Source: a virus
Length of the DNA: 46,339 bases
IMG/VR virus record: IMGVR_UViG_3300033388_002443
Location: 1-46,339 of that record
Strand: one strand, 5' to 3'
In this document: piece after piece, positions 3,692 to 26,854 of the stretch
How the letters are laid out: the number at the start of each line of letters is the position of its first letter
How positions within the stretch are numbered: the first letter of the stretch is position 1
Translations under genes and position numbers: made by a program
Notes under the pieces: model-generated
What the model was told of the DNA's origin: nothing
What the model saw: the letters and a program-made list of their open reading frames with translations, nothing else
Database searches by the model: none

Positions 3692-6618
3692 AGAAAGTCA
3701 TACTTGCTGAAAACGCACTGGATAAATCCACTTGGGAAACGTTCGAAGTTCCAAGTGTGCGTGAGTTTCTTTATTCCCGCTTCGATGCGCTTCCCGACAC
3801 TGCCCGAATTTATCACAATCAGGTTGCAGAAAGCAACGAAATATATTTTCACGATGATCCAGAGGGCAAGAAGCTTGATGATCTGAGCGGGACGTTTTAC
3901 GTCGTTGTTTATCCTGGTGGGGCAGCAATTCCTTATATCATCTATGCTGTAATTGCAATAGCGTCCTACTACTACGCTAAAAGTCAAATCCCTTCTGCGA
4001 CCGCGCGTAACGTCCAAAACCAGAGCCCTAACAACGAGCTTTCGGAGAGGACCAACAAGGCCCGCCCTCGCGCACGAATCCCCGATCTTTACGGCACGGT
4101 TCGCTCTACTCCTGACCTGCTATCACTGCATACCGCCTATGTGGACCATGTTGAAAAGGAGTATATGTATACGTGCGTCGGCCGGGGGGCTCATGAAATA
4201 CCCGCGAATGAAGTCAAAGACGAAACGACGCTTTATTCAGAGATTGAAGGGTCCGGCGTTGAAATCTATGCCCCGAATACCTCCCCGAATTCTGGCGACA
4301 GTCCTCAGTTGACCATAGGCGACCAGATAACAGAGGCGATCTACATCGCTAACCGAAGCAATGCGATAAACGGGCAGGTTTTAAAATCAGCAAACATAGG
4401 CGAGTCGTTTCAAGGGGACGGTGACACTATGTTTGGTTTTAATACCACATGGTCAGGGTCACCCTTCCTTGCGGGAGGTTCATTTCAAATACTAGGACCT
4501 GTTGATTTCGGAGACCTCTTTAATGTCGGGGATGAAATTGTAATAAGCAACGCTGTTTATGATGACGACGTTACGTTTGTTAATTTAGATGGAACTTATA
4601 CTATATTATACATAGCGGTTGGGCGTGATCCCCAAGGCACGCCGGTTCAGACCATTGTTCAGTTGGAAGACGTGGTTTCCATAACTACCGACTGGGAGTT
4701 GATGCCAAATTTTCTTAATGGAATAACCGGCCCGATTAGCCCATTAATAGAGTCCGCGTCAGATGGCTATGTCGGCCCGTTCAGGGTTAAAGCGCCTGAT
4801 TTAGAAAAGGTATATTGCAATTTTGTTGCGCTTAACGGACTGTATAGAGACGATGGGGTTACGCAAACTGCAATTAATATTGAAGTTGAGGTCAGTTTAA
4901 CACCGATTGACAGTCAAGGCGTTCCGTCTGGAGCGGAAATCCTAACACGCGGCGTTGTTATAGGCTCGGCAACTGAAAAATCATCAAGAGCACTTACCTT
5001 AAAAATAAGTTTTGGCACACAAACGACAGGCTACGAAGGGGCGTTTTCAATAAAAGCACGGAGAATCACCGACAAAATAACTGCAAACGGCACTGTCATG
5101 GACGAGATAAAATGGCGTGACGTTTACGCAATGGGTGAAGTGACTCAAAACGATTTCGGGGACGTTACAACAGTTCATTCAGTGACTCAGGCAACAGGGG
5201 GTGCATTAGTCGCCAAAAGCCGAAAATTGAACATGCTGGCTACGCGGAAACTCCCCCGTCGCATTTCCGGTTCAACATTCACAGTCGAACTTTACCCGAC
5301 AGATAGAGCCGACGAAATCATTTCTGCAATGTGCTTAGATCCGCGTATAGGCAACCGTTCAAAAGACGAAGTAGATTTTGACAATATTTACGACACGGTA
5401 GCCGAGATTGAGACATACTTCGGAATTGAAAAGGCCGTTGAGTTCGGCTATACTTTTGATTCAGACAACCTATCTTTTGAAGAAATGATTTCATCAGTTG
5501 TTCAAGCTATTTATTGCACCGCTTATCGATTCGGCTCGGTCATTCGAATCAATTTTGAGAAAGAAACTGATGATTCAGTTTTATTGTTTAATCATCGGAA
5601 TAAGCTACCGGGAAGCGAAAAGCGTTCGGTTCGATTTGGCAACCAAGATGATCAGGACGGAGTTGAGCTTGAATACGTAGACCCCGAAGACGACGCTGTT
5701 GTAACTATTTATCTTCCAAATGATCAAGCTCGAAACCCCAAAAAAGTCGAAACGATCGGGGTTAGAAACCGCATACAAGCGTACTGGCTGGCGTGGCGAT
5801 TGTGGAACAAGATTCAGCTCCAAAATACAGCAACCGAATTTAACGCCACGCAAGAGGCAGACTTGCTTGTTTTGAATGATCGAATTTTAGTTGCCGATAA
5901 TACGCGACCTGGAACACAAGATGGCGACGTAATTTCGCAAGACGGTTTGGAATTAACCCTTTCGCAGGCTGTTGTTTTTGATGTTGCTCAAACATATATA
6001 ATATTCTTGCAACACACTGACGGCTCAGTCGAATCGATAGGCGTTACAGCAGGTTCTACAAGTAGGCAAGTGTTGCTAGCACAAGCGCCCAAAGCGCCGC
6101 TATCACTGGACGTTGCAGCATATGCGCGGGCGACTTATCAGATTGTGGGCAGTGCGTCAACTAGAGAGCAAGCATTCCTTGTCACTGAAAAAGACACCCT
6201 TGATAATTTCACATCACGGGTTGTAGCCATAAACTACGACGACGAATACTATGAGCATGATTCGTGGTATGCAGACGGAATAATCAACGAAGAAGGCGAG
6301 TTTAACGTCGCAGGCACTATCTCATTCAGCCCCTTGCCGGAAGCTCTTGTTTATCTATCCTCAAGCTTCCCGGTTGCAGTGACCGTTAACCAAACCAACC
6401 CCGGCGACGAGATACGCTATTCAAAGACGGCAATGCCCACAAACATTACTGATGGAGCTGAATACACCGGACCGGTTGACGTTAACGACGGTGAGACGCT
6501 TTACGCGAGGCCGTTTAGCCCGATTAACGATGGGGTTGGCATAAGCGGAACATATAACTCAGTTCCAAATCTCGATTTCCAATTTGCAACTAATTCGCAA
6601 TATCTAGCAACAATGTAA
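3685..6618 (+). CDS. J-like tail-tip / central fibre (host specificity) protein
   Basis: A 977-residue protein. Near residues 75-95 is a hydrophobic segment after YVVVYPGGAAIP, typical of the lambda gpI/gpJ-like junction. A segment ERTNKARPRARIPDLYG follows, characteristic of phage tail-tip attachment proteins that build the hub. Long beta-rich insertions lie in the middle. The last ~90 residues contain a pattern typical of chitobiase/beta-hexosaminidase C-terminal repeats (NPGDEIRYSKTAMPTNI, then GETLYARPFS), likely a cell-surface binding module. The protein probably forms the tail-tip hub and the first receptor-binding element. It precedes two further surface proteins in the same unit. Confidence 0.78.
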   Translation: MLKKVILAENALDKSTWETFEVPSVREFLYSRFDALPDTARIYHNQVAESNEIYFHDDPEGKKLDDLSGTFYVVVYPGGAAIPYIIYAVIAIASYYYAKSQIPSATARNVQNQSPNNELSERTNKARPRARIPDLYGTVRSTPDLLSLHTAYVDHVEKEYMYTCVGRGAHEIPANEVKDETTLYSEIEGSGVEIYAPNTSPNSGDSPQLTIGDQITEAIYIANRSNAINGQVLKSANIGESFQGDGDTMFGFNTTWSGSPFLAGGSFQILGPVDFGDLFNVGDEIVISNAVYDDDVTFVNLDGTYTILYIAVGRDPQGTPVQTIVQLEDVVSITTDWELMPNFLNGITGPISPLIESASDGYVGPFRVKAPDLEKVYCNFVALNGLYRDDGVTQTAINIEVEVSLTPIDSQGVPSGAEILTRGVVIGSATEKSSRALTLKISFGTQTTGYEGAFSIKARRITDKITANGTVMDEIKWRDVYAMGEVTQNDFGDVTTVHSVTQATGGALVAKSRKLNMLATRKLPRRISGSTFTVELYPTDRADEIISAMCLDPRIGNRSKDEVDFDNIYDTVAEIETYFGIEKAVEFGYTFDSDNLSFEEMISSVVQAIYCTAYRFGSVIRINFEKETDDSVLLFNHRNKLPGSEKRSVRFGNQDDQDGVELEYVDPEDDAVVTIYLPNDQARNPKKVETIGVRNRIQAYWLAWRLWNKIQLQNTATEFNATQEADLLVLNDRILVADNTRPGTQDGDVISQDGLELTLSQAVVFDVAQTYIIFLQHTDGSVESIGVTAGSTSRQVLLAQAPKAPLSLDVAAYARATYQIVGSASTREQAFLVTEKDTLDNFTSRVVAINYDDEYYEHDSWYADGIINEEGEFNVAGTISFSPLPEALVYLSSSFPVAVTVNQTNPGDEIRYSKTAMPTNITDGAEYTGPVDVNDGETLYARPFSPINDGVGISGTYNSVPNLDFQFATNSQYLATM

Positions 6619-18502: not shown

Positions 18503-19000
18503 TCATTTCTTCGACTTAGGGGCAACAATGGAAAGCGTGGGACTTGCTTCTTTGGTAATGACAACCGCGTCGATAATTGCCTTGTGTGTTCCGCAAAGCT
18601 GTTTGTATTCGGACAGGGAAAGTGTCGGAGTCCATTTGACAAGACGCTCTGCAATGAGTTCACCGGCTGCACCGTCGCTTTCAATCAGGCACAATGCGGA
18701 ATCAATCGCTTTTTTATCAACCTTATCTTCTGAGTTCTTGATAAAGCTAAAGTTCAGCTTTTTAACTGCTTTTGCTTTGTAGCCGTTAGCTAGCTCGATG
18801 TTTTCAGTTCCGCTTTTCTGGTCCTGGTCGAAAGCAAAATCAACAACGCGCTTGCGCAATTCCATTTCGTTTTCTTTAGCAGCGGCAAGTGTTTTCTGCG
18901 CTGTTTCCCAAAGATTCAAAAGGCGTGTGCGTTCTGATGCGAAAGCCGTTTCGGTGTACTCTTTGACTTCGCCGGTTTCTTTGTTTGTGATTTGGATCAT
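18503..19000 (-). CDS. Hypothetical phage protein, first gene behind early promoter
   Basis: A 165-residue protein, not assigned. Residues 1-50 form a charged helix (TETAFASERTRLLNLWETAQKTL), which suggests a coiled coil. The middle carries KAVKKLNFSFIKN and the C-terminus is a Ser/Pro/Lys tail. RBS AGGAGC is well placed. A strong promoter (19036-19063) lies just upstream and probably drives this gene and the whole leftward operon. Being first suggests an early, abundant product. Confidence 0.75.
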   Translation of the reverse strand: MIQITNKETGEVKEYTETAFASERTRLLNLWETAQKTLAAAKENEMELRKRVVDFAFDQDQKSGTENIELANGYKAKAVKKLNFSFIKNSEDKVDKKAIDSALCLIESDGAAGELIAERLVKWTPTLSLSEYKQLCGTHKAIIDAVVITKEASPTLSIVAPKSKK

Positions 19001-24055: not shown

Positions 24056-24235
24056 TTAGCGACGTCGCATTGAACGGTTGAGTTCTCCGATTTGCTCACA
24101 TGCTTTATTGTAGGCGGTCCAATCGGCGGGCATCTTTTCAGCTTCTTTCATTACTTCTTCAAGTTCGGCGATTTTCTTGATTTTCTGGTTGCGTGTCATT
24201 TTGACTTGCTCCTTAATAGTGTTGGTTGCTTTCAT
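24056..24235 (-). CDS. Small charged helical protein, dual-start candidate
   Basis: Two in-frame starts are possible. ATG 24235 lies exactly at the predicted transcription start of the promoter at 24242-24270, so the mRNA would be leaderless (59 aa). ATG 24199 has AAGGAGC upstream (47 aa). The core is helical and charged (RNQKIKKIAELEEVMKEAEK) and ends RSMRRR. Function is unknown. The long start adds a Thr/Asn-rich 12-residue leader like those of three other early genes. Confidence 0.6.
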   Translation of the reverse strand: MKATNTIKEQVKMTRNQKIKKIAELEEVMKEAEKMPADWTAYNKACEQIGELNRSMRRR

Positions 24236-24241
24236 ATAAAT

Positions 24242-24270
24242 ACTATATACCACTGCGTTATAAGTTGCAA
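24242..24270 (-). promoter_or_regulatory. Early promoter with ATG at the predicted +1
   Basis: Minus strand: TTGCAA (24265-24270), 17-bp spacer, TATAGT (24242-24247), then six bases and ATG (24233-24235). The A of ATG is the expected start point. Confidence 0.7.
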
Positions 24271-24293
24271 GCCTTTTACGAAAGAAAAAGCTT

Positions 24294-24482
24294 TTAATCC
24301 TTTTTATGATACTTGAGCGTTTCGTTCAATACAACTTTAACATTTCCAACTGAACGCGAACCGGTGAAGTAAAAACTATTTTGATAAACATTGCCACCCC
24401 GTACAATGCCCTCAACTTTCATTTCGGCGGCTTTACCTAACGCATAAACCCAAATAAGTTCGCCGTGTGTTACGTTTCCCAT
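24294..24482 (-). CDS. Hypothetical small protein (62 aa)
   Basis: A beta-rich protein (THGELIWVYALGKAAEMKVE, then SFYFTGSRSVGNVKVVL). AAAGGA lies before the ATG. Not recognised. It belongs to the leftward early operon. Confidence 0.55.
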   Translation of the reverse strand: MGNVTHGELIWVYALGKAAEMKVEGIVRGGNVYQNSFYFTGSRSVGNVKVVLNETLKYHKKD

Positions 24483-24484
24483 TA

Positions 24485-24673
24485 TTAAATCCTTTCGCCT
24501 TTTGCGTTGTAACCGCGTTTCATCTTATTCAATAGATAGTTTACTTTTTTCTGACAACAGCGGTTTTTGCCGCAATCGCAATCAGGAACCTGACAAACTG
24601 AGTTTTTAATGTTCCCGCATACTTCGCATTTTGAATCTTTGCGAAATTGTCCGCAACACTTTTTGACACTCAT
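24485..24673 (-). CDS. Cysteine-rich zinc-binding miniprotein
   Basis: A 62-residue protein with nine cysteines: CC (residues 6-7), CEVC, and CQVPDCDCGKNRCC. ATG 24673 is chosen because it follows the stop of the preceding gene (TAA AA ATG); a longer in-frame extension overlaps that gene. Zinc binding is likely. Function is unknown. Confidence 0.55.
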   Translation of the reverse strand: MSVKKCCGQFRKDSKCEVCGNIKNSVCQVPDCDCGKNRCCQKKVNYLLNKMKRGYNAKGERI

Positions 24674-24675
24674 TT

Positions 24676-24885
24676 TTACCAGCTTATTTTCATTTGAAAG
24701 CCAATGACGAAATCCATAGCATAACAAATGTTCCAGAGATATTCGGACCAATGACTCTTATCAATACTGTCATCTTTATAGATATCATAGAGGGCGGTGA
24801 CGTTGCGGGCCGGGTGACGGTCGATGATTTTGTTTGCTTGTTGAATTGTCATTTCGTTTTCCAGTTTAGTTTCTGCTTTGTTCAT
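24676..24885 (-). CDS. Hypothetical early protein, dual-start candidate
   Basis: A 69-residue protein if ATG 24885 is used, which lies at the expected +1 of the promoter at 24892-24920. ATG 24852 (after CTGGAAAACGAA) is an in-frame alternative. The core carries a helical segment (TIQQANKIIDRHPARNVTAL), then a Trp/Tyr-rich end (HWSEYLWNICYAMDFVIGF). Function is unknown. Confidence 0.55.
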   Translation of the reverse strand: MNKAETKLENEMTIQQANKIIDRHPARNVTALYDIYKDDSIDKSHWSEYLWNICYAMDFVIGFQMKISW

Positions 24886-24891
24886 ATCGCT

Positions 24892-24920
24892 ACTATAGCT
24901 CACTACTAAACCGATTTCAA
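24892..24920 (-). promoter_or_regulatory. Early promoter with ATG at the predicted +1
   Basis: Minus strand: TTGAAA (24915-24920), 17-bp spacer, TATAGT (24892-24897), six bases, then ATG (24883-24885). Confidence 0.7.
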
Positions 24921-24924
24921 TAGC

Positions 24925-25179
24925 TTAAACGCTTTTTAGTCTTTTCTTTTTGACTGCTTTCAATCGTTTATTTTCAGCTTCGTTGATACGGTCGGCACGT
25001 TCGCTGGCAATGCGTCTCACCTTCTCTTTAGTAAAGTATCTGCAAATATCATTACATTGGTCACAAAGATCTGTATCATGCACCAGGGAGTGATAAACGG
25101 CCTCATTGTCGCAAAGTTCACACCCTGGGGTTTCTTCGTGCTCGGGCGGGTTAGTTCCTCTGTATTGACTGTAGGTCAT
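24925..25179 (-). CDS. Zinc-ribbon protein with basic helix
   Basis: An 84-residue protein with CELC (residues 20-23) and CDQC (39-42), plus CRYF, then a charged helix (KEKVRRIASERADRINEAEN) and a Lys/Arg end (KKKRLKSV). AAAGGAG precedes the ATG, and a GC hairpin (25194-25213) lies directly before the RBS. A nucleic-acid-binding role is likely. Confidence 0.65.
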   Translation of the reverse strand: MTYSQYRGTNPPEHEETPGCELCDNEAVYHSLVHDTDLCDQCNDICRYFTKEKVRRIASERADRINEAENKRLKAVKKKRLKSV

Positions 25180-25193
25180 GGTAGATCTCCTTT

Positions 25194-25213
25194 GCCCGGT
25201 TTAGCCGCCGGGC
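25194..25213 (-). repeat. RBS-proximal GC hairpin, copy A
   Basis: GCCCGG / CCGGGC stem enclosing an 8-nt loop, immediately upstream of the AAAGGAG of the 24925-25179 gene. It is near-identical (about 16 of 20 positions) to the inverted copy at 26871-26890. Confidence 0.5.
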
Positions 25214-25228
25214 TCGGCTGTTGTGAAT

Positions 25229-25552
25229 CTAGCCTGCTAAGCGCACTTCAAGGTTTCCGGCTTCCGCTAGCTTTACCATTTCTTCCGCTGTTTCTTTTGG
25301 CACGTATCCAGCAACGGCAGTTTCACCATCCTCAAAGAGTTCTGAGAACTTGACGGGTATGGCCCATTTGCCATCTTTGAATACGGCAATTTCTACTGCT
25401 TGGAATCCATTTAGATTGTCACGGTTCTCCTGTGGTGTGCTGTAGTGGAAGCGTGAGCCTTGTATTGATATGGCAATATCGTCGTTGAAGGTTAGCCGTT
25501 CAAACAAGGGGTGTGATTTGGTTCCAATGTTCACTTGGCTCGGTAGGGACAT
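25229..25552 (-). CDS. Hypothetical protein (107 aa)
   Basis: A beta-rich protein with a helical C-terminus (PKETAEEMVKLAEAG). It carries the pattern HYSTPQENRDNLNGFQAVEIAVF. GGAG precedes the start, and a small hairpin (25570-25582) sits just upstream of it. Not recognised. It lies in the early leftward operon. Confidence 0.6.
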   Translation of the reverse strand: MSLPSQVNIGTKSHPLFERLTFNDDIAISIQGSRFHYSTPQENRDNLNGFQAVEIAVFKDGKWAIPVKFSELFEDGETAVAGYVPKETAEEMVKLAEAGNLEVRLAG

Positions 25553-25569
25553 TTTGGCGTGCTCCGTTT

Positions 25570-25582
25570 GCCTCAGTGAGGC
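25570..25582 (-). other. Small RBS-proximal hairpin
   Basis: GCCTC-AGT-GAGGC, four bases upstream of the GGAG of the 25229-25552 gene. It has the same hairpin-then-RBS arrangement as the copies at 25194 and 26871, with a different sequence. Confidence 0.4.
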
Positions 25583-25602
25583 GGTTATTGGTGGTTGTGG
25601 AT

Positions 25603-25842
25603 CTAGCCCAAGTAGCCCGCGTCTAGGTCGGCTTGCTGTTGCTTGGCACGTTTAACGGCTGTTTTGCGCGATACGATGCAACTACCGTTGAAGATGTTTT
25701 TGCGGCCATTGGTCCAGATTGCAATAAAGCCTGTTGAAACCTCTTTAATGGCCGTGTCTTTTGTGATCGGCGTTGTGTAAGCGTCTTCGTTGATTTGGTT
25801 TGTCATTTTGGCTTGTCCGTTAGTTGTTGTTTCGTTGTTCAT
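25603..25842 (-). CDS. First leftward early protein, dual-start candidate
   Basis: A 79-residue protein if ATG 25842 is used, which is the expected +1 of the promoter at 25849-25877. ATG 25806 (after GGACAAGCCAAA) gives 67 residues. The first 12 residues (NNETTTNGQAK) resemble the leader of the rightward gene at 26579 (ERKTTTNQGQVE). The core has FIAIWTNGRKNIFNG and VSRKTAVKRAKQQQ, a small basic protein. Function is unknown; likely host takeover or regulation. Confidence 0.6.
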   Translation of the reverse strand: MNNETTTNGQAKMTNQINEDAYTTPITKDTAIKEVSTGFIAIWTNGRKNIFNGSCIVSRKTAVKRAKQQQADLDAGYLG

Positions 25843-25848
25843 ATAAGT

Positions 25849-25877
25849 ACTATATAGCCATGTGTTTTGAATTGCAA
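25849..25877 (-). promoter_or_regulatory. Leftward early promoter at the origin-like region
   Basis: Minus strand: TTGCAA (25872-25877), 17-bp spacer, TATAGT (25849-25854), six bases, then ATG (25840-25842). Confidence 0.75.
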
Positions 25878-26060
25878 TAGACTTTTTGATTAAATTTAGG
25901 TTTCAGTGTGATTAATGGAGTTGTTTAGACAATTTAGCCTAAAAAGGGGTGATTTGGCGTTATGAAATTATAAAATTATGAAATACTGTCTATTTTGCCT
26001 TATAAAATTATGAATCACGAAAATGCCCACAAAAGCATATAATAGACGGAGCCTTGACTA

Positions 26061-26133
26061 TCAACGACTTGCATTAAATTATAATAAGATTCCGAACCGT
26101 TATACGTTTTCTCGGAATCTGTAAGTTGTTGAC
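26061..26133. repeat. Two-stem hyphenated palindrome
   Basis: Outer stem TCAACGACTT (26061-26070) / AAGTTGTTGA (26124-26133), 9 of 10 Watson-Crick with one G-U in RNA. Inner stem AGATTCCGA (26087-26095) / TCGGAATCT (26112-26120). A TATAAT lies between at 26080-26085. It could form a cruciform or a structured RNA. Confidence 0.55.
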
Positions 26134-26214
26134 GTTACGTTAGTTAGCCCGTAATATATAACAAATATAACAAGTATAACAATATCCGGGCGACATATGG
26201 AGACATAAGGGCCC

Positions 26215-26277
26215 TTAAACATTAAACTTTATAGATTAAACATTAAACGTTAAACATTATAGATTAAACGTTAAACT
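26215..26277. repeat. Array of nine tandem heptamers (TTAAACN / TTATAGA)
   Basis: Nine contiguous 7-bp units start at 26215 and every 7 bp. Seven read TTAAAC plus one variable base; units 3 and 7 read TTATAGA, exactly 28 bp apart. The exact register is visible in the sequence. Likely iterons bound by a replication initiator. Confidence 0.75.
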
Positions 26278-26340
26278 CCTTAACTTCCTTATGAAAGTTA
26301 AAATGTTAATCTCCTAACGTAATAATACTATATGTATACT

Positions 26341-26372
26341 ATTATATATATTATATTTATTATATATATTAA
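26341..26372. other. Pure A/T tract (possible unwinding element)
   Basis: 32 bases without G or C, preceded by another ~20 AT-dominated bases. It lies about 65 bp after the heptamer array, as DNA-unwinding elements lie beside iterons. Confidence 0.5.
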
Positions 26373-26543
26373 GATAAAGAGAGAGTGGGAGGCTAGAGAC
26401 CTTGCTTTATGAAATTAACAATCATTATACTTTACCGCCTATTTGTATAACAGCACAAACCTAGAGCCGTTCTAATTTTATGAATCTTGGGAATCTATAA
26501 AGAAGTTGAGGCTAAAATAATGAGTTTAATTTCATAAAGGGGC

Positions 26544-26572
26544 TTGAAAGGGCTAAAAGATGGCTGTATATT
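26544..26572 (+). promoter_or_regulatory. Rightward early promoter at the origin-like region
   Basis: TTGAAA (26544-26549), 17-bp spacer, TATATT (26567-26572), six bases, then ATG 26579, the predicted start point. Confidence 0.75.
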
Positions 26573-26578
26573 GTAGTT

Positions 26579-26854
26579 ATGGAAAGAAAAACCACAACGA
26601 ACCAGGGACAAGTTGAAATGAAAAGACTATCTGAAAAAACATTATCGGCGGCACTAAAAAACCATGATCATAAAGGAGTGCAATACTGGGTTGCATTTGT
26701 ACCGAGTGGTTTTCACCTCTACAAGCGTTGCGTTGACGCGGTTAGAACCGGCTACCAAGTGAATGAAATGCAAGAGTGCTGCATTGAAAGGCTTCAAGAG
26801 TTAACCGGTAGCGATATCTACAAAGCTGACGAGGATGTTTGGCAACTCGCATAA
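26579..26854 (+). CDS. First rightward early protein, dual-start candidate
   Basis: A 91-residue protein if ATG 26579, the expected transcript +1, is used. ATG 26618 (after AGGGACAAGTTGAA) gives 78 residues. The leader (ERKTTTNQGQVE) resembles that of the divergent gene at 25842. The core KRLSEKTLSAALKNHDHKG and CCIERLQELTGSDIY look helical. Function is unknown; early host-control protein suspected. Confidence 0.6.
   Translation: MERKTTTNQGQVEMKRLSEKTLSAALKNHDHKGVQYWVAFVPSGFHLYKRCVDAVRTGYQVNEMQECCIERLQELTGSDIYKADEDVWQLA

Follow-up and report, generated by a model that had tools for sequence, protein, structure and literature searches.

In-frame ATGs at the predicted 5' ends of early transcripts in an uncultivated phage: a duplicated promoter-leader cassette and a possible dual start

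The virus record IMGVR_UViG_3300033388_002443, which represents an uncultivated phage and was analysed over its whole length of 46,339 bases (the window), contains four early promoters, termed P1-P4, in which an ATG stands exactly where the transcript is predicted to begin. The question raised by this locus is whether the ATG serves as a start codon, alone or together with a second in-frame ATG a few tens of nucleotides downstream, or whether it is brought along by the promoter. A previous sequence-only reading had proposed a family of leaderless or dual-start early transcripts.

The four cassettes and their surroundings

The P1 promoter (24242-24270, minus strand) consists of TTGCAA (24270-24265), a 17-bp spacer and TATAGT (24247-24242), which is followed by ATTTAT and the ATG at 24235. 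The P1 gene, read from this 5'-terminal ATG, occupies 24056-24235 of the minus strand with the leader MKATNTIKEQVK, and its second in-frame ATG at 24199 (+36) is preceded by the Shine-Dalgarno (SD) sequence AAGGAG. In P2 (24892-24920, minus strand) the arrangement is TTGAAA-17-TATAGT-AGCGAT-ATG, with the ATG at 24885; the gene (24676-24885, minus strand) has the leader MNKAETKLENE and a second ATG with a weak SD at 24852 (+33). P3 (25849-25877, minus strand) reads TTGCAA-17-TATAGT-ACTTAT-ATG, the ATG being at 25842, and its gene (25603-25842, minus strand) has the leader MNNETTTNGQAK and a second ATG, again with a weak SD, at 25806 (+36). P4 is located on the plus strand (26544-26572) as TTGAAA-17-TATATT-GTAGTT-ATG 26579; the gene (26579-26854, plus strand) has the leader MERKTTTNQGQVE and a second ATG at 26618 (+39) with the weak SD GGGA. 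The related fifth promoter, P5 (19036-19064, minus strand), can be read as TTTGCA with a 17-bp or TTGCAA with a 16-bp spacer before TATAGT, and it has an ordinary 29-nt SD leader to the ATG at 19000.

The promoters, 17-bp spacers, six-base gaps and ATGs were found at the coordinates given by the sequence-only reading, which was also correct in that all four ATGs share the frame of the gene, that a second in-frame ATG follows 36, 33, 36 and 39 nt on, and that the fifth promoter has ATA (19029) at +1 in place of ATG. No stop codon separates the first and second in-frame ATG in any of the four cases. The claim that the second ATGs carry SD-like sequences held well for P1, where the calculated value of -8.4 kcal/mol is among the best in the window, while P2, P3 and P4 (-3.3, -3.2 and -4.8 kcal/mol) have weak GGA-type sites compared with about -5.4 for a typical window gene, and are weaker than most. 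The leaders, 33-39 nt long, are A/C-rich and mostly unstructured. Since a Thr/Asn/Lys-rich peptide is expected from A/C-rich RNA, the composition of the leader peptides, which had been taken as a sign of coding, was rejected as evidence.

The window can be placed near the genera Septimatrevirus (phage 73) and Kilunavirus (KL1) and more distantly near Titanvirus (Rhodobacter phages), because its primase and DNA polymerase are 60-64% and 64-67% identical, respectively, to the homologues in these relatives, and because of the order of its replication genes; in these genes and their synteny it is Septimatrevirus-like. Most of its early region (22.5-27 kb) is private. To the right of the primase, phage 73 and KL1 have all their genes on a single strand; in the window a minus-strand gene block is followed there by an AT-rich region and then by plus-strand early genes. 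None of the four P1-P4 proteins matched a family in PHROGs or Pfam (0/4) or had a homologue among the related loci (0/4), and searches of phage records and IMG/VR with the P3 and P4 proteins found nothing closely related.

P3 and P4 point away from each other, and between them lies an AT-rich (29-32% GC), non-coding stretch at 25880-26545, in which 14-nt iterated repeats of the TTAAACATTAAACG type (26215-26270), several copies of TTATGAAATTA and a 14-nt perfect inverted repeat could be observed. The cumulative GC skew has its minimum at about 25.2 kb, near this stretch, which looks like a replication origin.

The initiator of the phage group and chance estimates

The position of the ATG was compared with the predicted start regions of 90 dereplicated promoters that precede an SD-led gene, collected from the window and 93 related loci. 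Position -1 was C or T in 70, +1 was A in 51 and +2 was T in 42 of the 90, i.e. a pyrimidine-A-T (Y-A-T) sits six bases after the -10 hexamer, in the same place as the ATGs of P1-P4. When ATGs were counted by their distance from the -10 hexamer, the maximum also fell at six bases (17, as against 1-9 elsewhere). This pattern suggests that Y-A-T is the transcription initiator, which would fix the start six bases after the -10, and therefore that the AT comes along with the promoter. Because the initiator lies at exactly this position, the earlier claim that the mRNA begins with AUG gained comparative support insofar as the A of the ATG is the base predicted to be +1.

The third transcribed base is free across the group (ATC 13, ATG 9, ATA 7, ATT 4), and G at +3 is not enriched overall (9 of the 33 ATN). 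In the other relatives, carrying an AUG does not make a leader more likely to be in frame; the leaders there are frame-shifted or contain stops. Homologues of the P5 promoter have either ATA (phage 73, L032, L034) or ATG (L012, L028, L030, L033, L041), and all frames occur among them. Several of these homologues facing away from the primase (L012, L028, L030, L032, L041, phage 73 (L002) and others) have a predicted stem-loop beginning 2-4 nt from the 5' end of the mRNA, for example GCCGUCGG-AUAAC-CCGGCGGC; its sequence differs and its pairing is kept, and it is absent in the window. It may stabilise the 5' end or act as a regulatory hairpin.

Dinucleotide shuffling of the stretch between the -10 and the second ATG gave a probability of about 2e-8 for an ATG at exactly +1 in 4/4 cases, the frame uncounted. 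This value was dropped, since group promoters favour Y-A-T at -1/+1/+2 and such a null is too generous. Once the initiator is allowed for, the combined probability of a G at +3 in four of the five window promoters and of four out of four leaders being in frame and open was about 2e-5 if the cassettes are treated as independent. However, the cassettes are paralogous, thus the AUG and the frame are not four independent events; an estimate that allows for duplication and counts the AUG as one inherited event was approx. 0.0003-0.002.

Recurrence in L039 and the contrast in Titanvirus

The 13 known-phage loci examined first had no cassette of the P1-P4 kind, and it was a wider primase search that brought in both contig L039 and the Titanvirus contrast. 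Among the relatives, only L039 has the minus-strand early module in common with the window: a homologue of the gene after the P1 gene (80% over 45 aa) adjoins a cassette there. The promoter of this cassette is TTGAAA-17-TATTGT-AGTAGT-ATG, the next in-frame ATG lies at +33, and the leader MERQTTTKGNT resembles that of P4 and stands before an unrelated protein. All five cassettes (P1-P4 and L039) have G at +3 and leaders that are in frame and open, with lengths of 33, 36, 36, 39 and 33 nt; of the group's other leaders, 14/75 would be in frame and open (about 0.19 expected each). A profile built from the five gave significant E-values for P1-P4 and L039 only, the next hit (E 0.04) being an unrelated contig, and a further scan of viral and genome contigs for carriers of the early module returned only the contig of L039 again. 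Sites of the form TTGNNA-17-TANNNT-6-ATG number four in the whole window record versus one in each of five relatives. L039 also has a similar AT-rich stretch, at about 5310-5760, in the same place as that of the window.

The behaviour of Titanvirus is different, as one promoter precedes early genes that differ between phages and reads ATG, ATC or ATA at its start. RcTitan has TATATT-CAAGAC-ATG with a 30-nt in-frame leader, while RcHartney, in front of the same gene (ATGCAAGCCCAAGC...), has TATATT-CAACTT-ATC and a leader of 29 nt, one base shorter; ATC is found at +1 in RcThunderbird and RcSpartan as well, and ATA in RcMotherGoose. Since these triplets interchange, a 5' AUG cannot be a required gene start at this promoter. 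The records give the gene shared by RcTitan and RcHartney different starts, the +1 ATG in RcTitan (L122, gp44, 619-819) and the internal, SD-led one in RcHartney (L123, 44, 648-818); the upstream start call for RcTitan gp44 is probably wrong. Among the related phages, an in-frame ATG at this distance from the -10 was thus kept in L039, while elsewhere the ATN triplet was free and the frame random.

Dual start, its alternatives and known systems

The explanation we prefer, with about even confidence, is a duplicated promoter-leader cassette whose mRNAs would begin with an AUG and carry an SD-led start in the same frame, so that translation may begin at both. P1-P4 would be copies of one sigma70-type cassette placed before four unrelated small early genes, RNA polymerase would start at the A of the Y-A-T initiator, six bases after the -10, and because the base after the initiator AT is G at P1-P4 these transcripts would begin with AUG. 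The leader would keep this AUG in frame with the internal one, whose ribosome binding site (RBS) is strong in P1 and weak in P2-P4. Binding of 70S ribosomes to the 5' AUG would produce a form longer by 11-13 residues, SD-led initiation at the internal AUG would produce the shorter form, and both starts are most likely used. The weak SDs of P2-P4 are in line with this, and CA repeats or CA-rich sequence after a start codon are known to enhance both initiation modes (PMC9031893). In such an in-frame arrangement ribosomes loaded at the 5' end would not clash with the internal start. Keeping of the frame is to be expected if the 5' AUG is active, either because the extended form is useful or because an out-of-frame overlapping 5' ORF would be harmful. 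The analysis shows the anatomy, the position of the initiator, the frame and the recurrence in L039; where transcription begins, whether either AUG is used and whether there is any benefit are inferred from these. A more far-reaching version, rather unlikely in our estimation, would have the cassette force an in-frame 5'-terminal AUG on unrelated early genes, so that leaderless 70S and SD-led synthesis would run side by side, early synthesis would perhaps be sustained when canonical initiation is limiting, and each gene would give two proteoforms.

The chief alternative, quite conceivable although short of an even chance, is that only the Y-A-T initiator is kept, that the G at +3 and the frame are chance features inherited by duplication, and that the SD-led ATG alone is used. 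The free third base across the group, the interchange of ATG, ATC and ATA at one Titanvirus promoter together with the 1-nt leader change, and the ATG or ATA in every frame among the P5 homologues are all in line with it, as is the fact that the second ATGs keep a GGA...AAATG-type site, with ATGACA common to P1-P3. What it accounts for poorly is that all five cassettes keep the frame and stay open although their leaders come in three lengths, that the SDs of P2-P4 are weak, and that some activity is usual for 5'-terminal AUGs in E. coli (PMC4965119). Truly leaderless genes, started mainly or solely at the 5' AUG and with the second Met as an internal residue like any other, would also agree with the weak SDs of P2-P4, with the +1 on the A of the ATG and with the CA-rich, weakly structured start regions. 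Such genes are nevertheless clearly unlikely here, considering the strong SD at the second ATG of P1 and the context AAATGACA, which is repeated at the second ATGs of P1-P3 while the leader peptides diverge. Finally, the bases around +1 might form a DNA element, an operator or a melting/escape determinant, and have no role in translation. The T at -1 and the ATG are common to P1-P4, and in L039 (GTATG) a T also precedes the ATG, but the neighbouring bases differ between cassettes, which have neither a palindrome nor a repeat in common, and the in-frame leaders would be left unexplained, which makes this highly improbable.

Of the leaderless or dual-start family proposed before, the dual start therefore remains plausible. 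Purely leaderless transcripts are not supported because the second ATGs keep an RBS, a strong one in P1 only, and a conserved leaderless family across the group is not supported in view of the variable third base, the leaders that shift the frame or contain stops, and the Titanvirus swaps. The free third base and these swaps suggest that the initiator largely brings the AUG at +1 with it as a by-product, and that there is no family-wide leaderless system.

The nearest known parallel is found in E. coli, where 115 of 3,456 transcripts carry a 5'-terminal AUG (Beck, Fleming and Janssen 2016, PMC4965119); in the window, four of the five strong early promoters are predicted to give one. On the E. 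coli mRNAs 70S ribosomes bind the 5' AUG and translate, 30S subunits act at the internal start, and the effect of removing the 5' AUG on downstream expression ranged from -93% (ptrB) and -69% (rcnR) to +52% (mngR) (PMC4965119). These 5'-uAUG mRNAs, such as ptrB, rcnR, iscR and fucP, have the AUG at the 5' end or within 3 nt of it and an SD-led start tens of nucleotides downstream on the same mRNA. The transcripts predicted here would resemble them, with an SD that is strong in P1 and weak in P2-P4. However, that study was deliberately limited to out-of-frame uORFs, in-frame cases being excluded as giving longer isoforms (PMC4965119), while the window cases are all in frame and belong to duplicated phage early cassettes. 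If their 5' AUGs are used, they would represent a phage module of dual-start early mRNAs, the very in-frame case that was set aside. The leaderless genes of Deinococcus-Thermus have the same distance between the -10 motif and the ATG and depend on this motif, which precedes the ORF by about 6-7 bp (PMC12340547), but in the window the promoters have both a -35 and a -10 and are followed by an internal start with an RBS.

Among the papers searched there was none on phage early promoters with leaderless transcripts. The cI mRNA transcribed from PRM of phage lambda is leaderless, and like the transcripts predicted here it is a phage mRNA starting with the AUG of an open gene; the window differs from it by the second in-frame, RBS-bearing ATG within 39 nt and by the small early genes concerned. 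Ordinary early promoters of Septimatrevirus, Kilunavirus and Titanvirus (phage 73, KL1, RcTitan, RcHartney) have in common with P1-P4 the 17-bp spacer, the Y-A-T six bases after the -10 and an A/C-rich SD leader of 20-50 nt, but their third transcribed base is free and the frame is not kept. Caution is needed in phage groups that initiate at Y-A-T, as about one quarter of such promoters would by chance give a transcript that begins with AUG. Gene callers may pick the upstream ATG in these cases, as the different start calls for RcTitan gp44 and its RcHartney homologue illustrate.

Scans of IMG/VR with promoter-ATG patterns returned 13 stretches each, none of them related to the window, and most look like chance occurrences. 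The exception is a leaderless-looking gene of an unrelated phage, present in the near-identical contigs L017, L020 and L027, where TTGCAA-17-TATAGT-GAAGAT-ATG precedes a 64-aa ORF (1598-1827 in L017). This ORF has no internal in-frame ATG within its first 20 codons, and it is a candidate for a truly leaderless gene.
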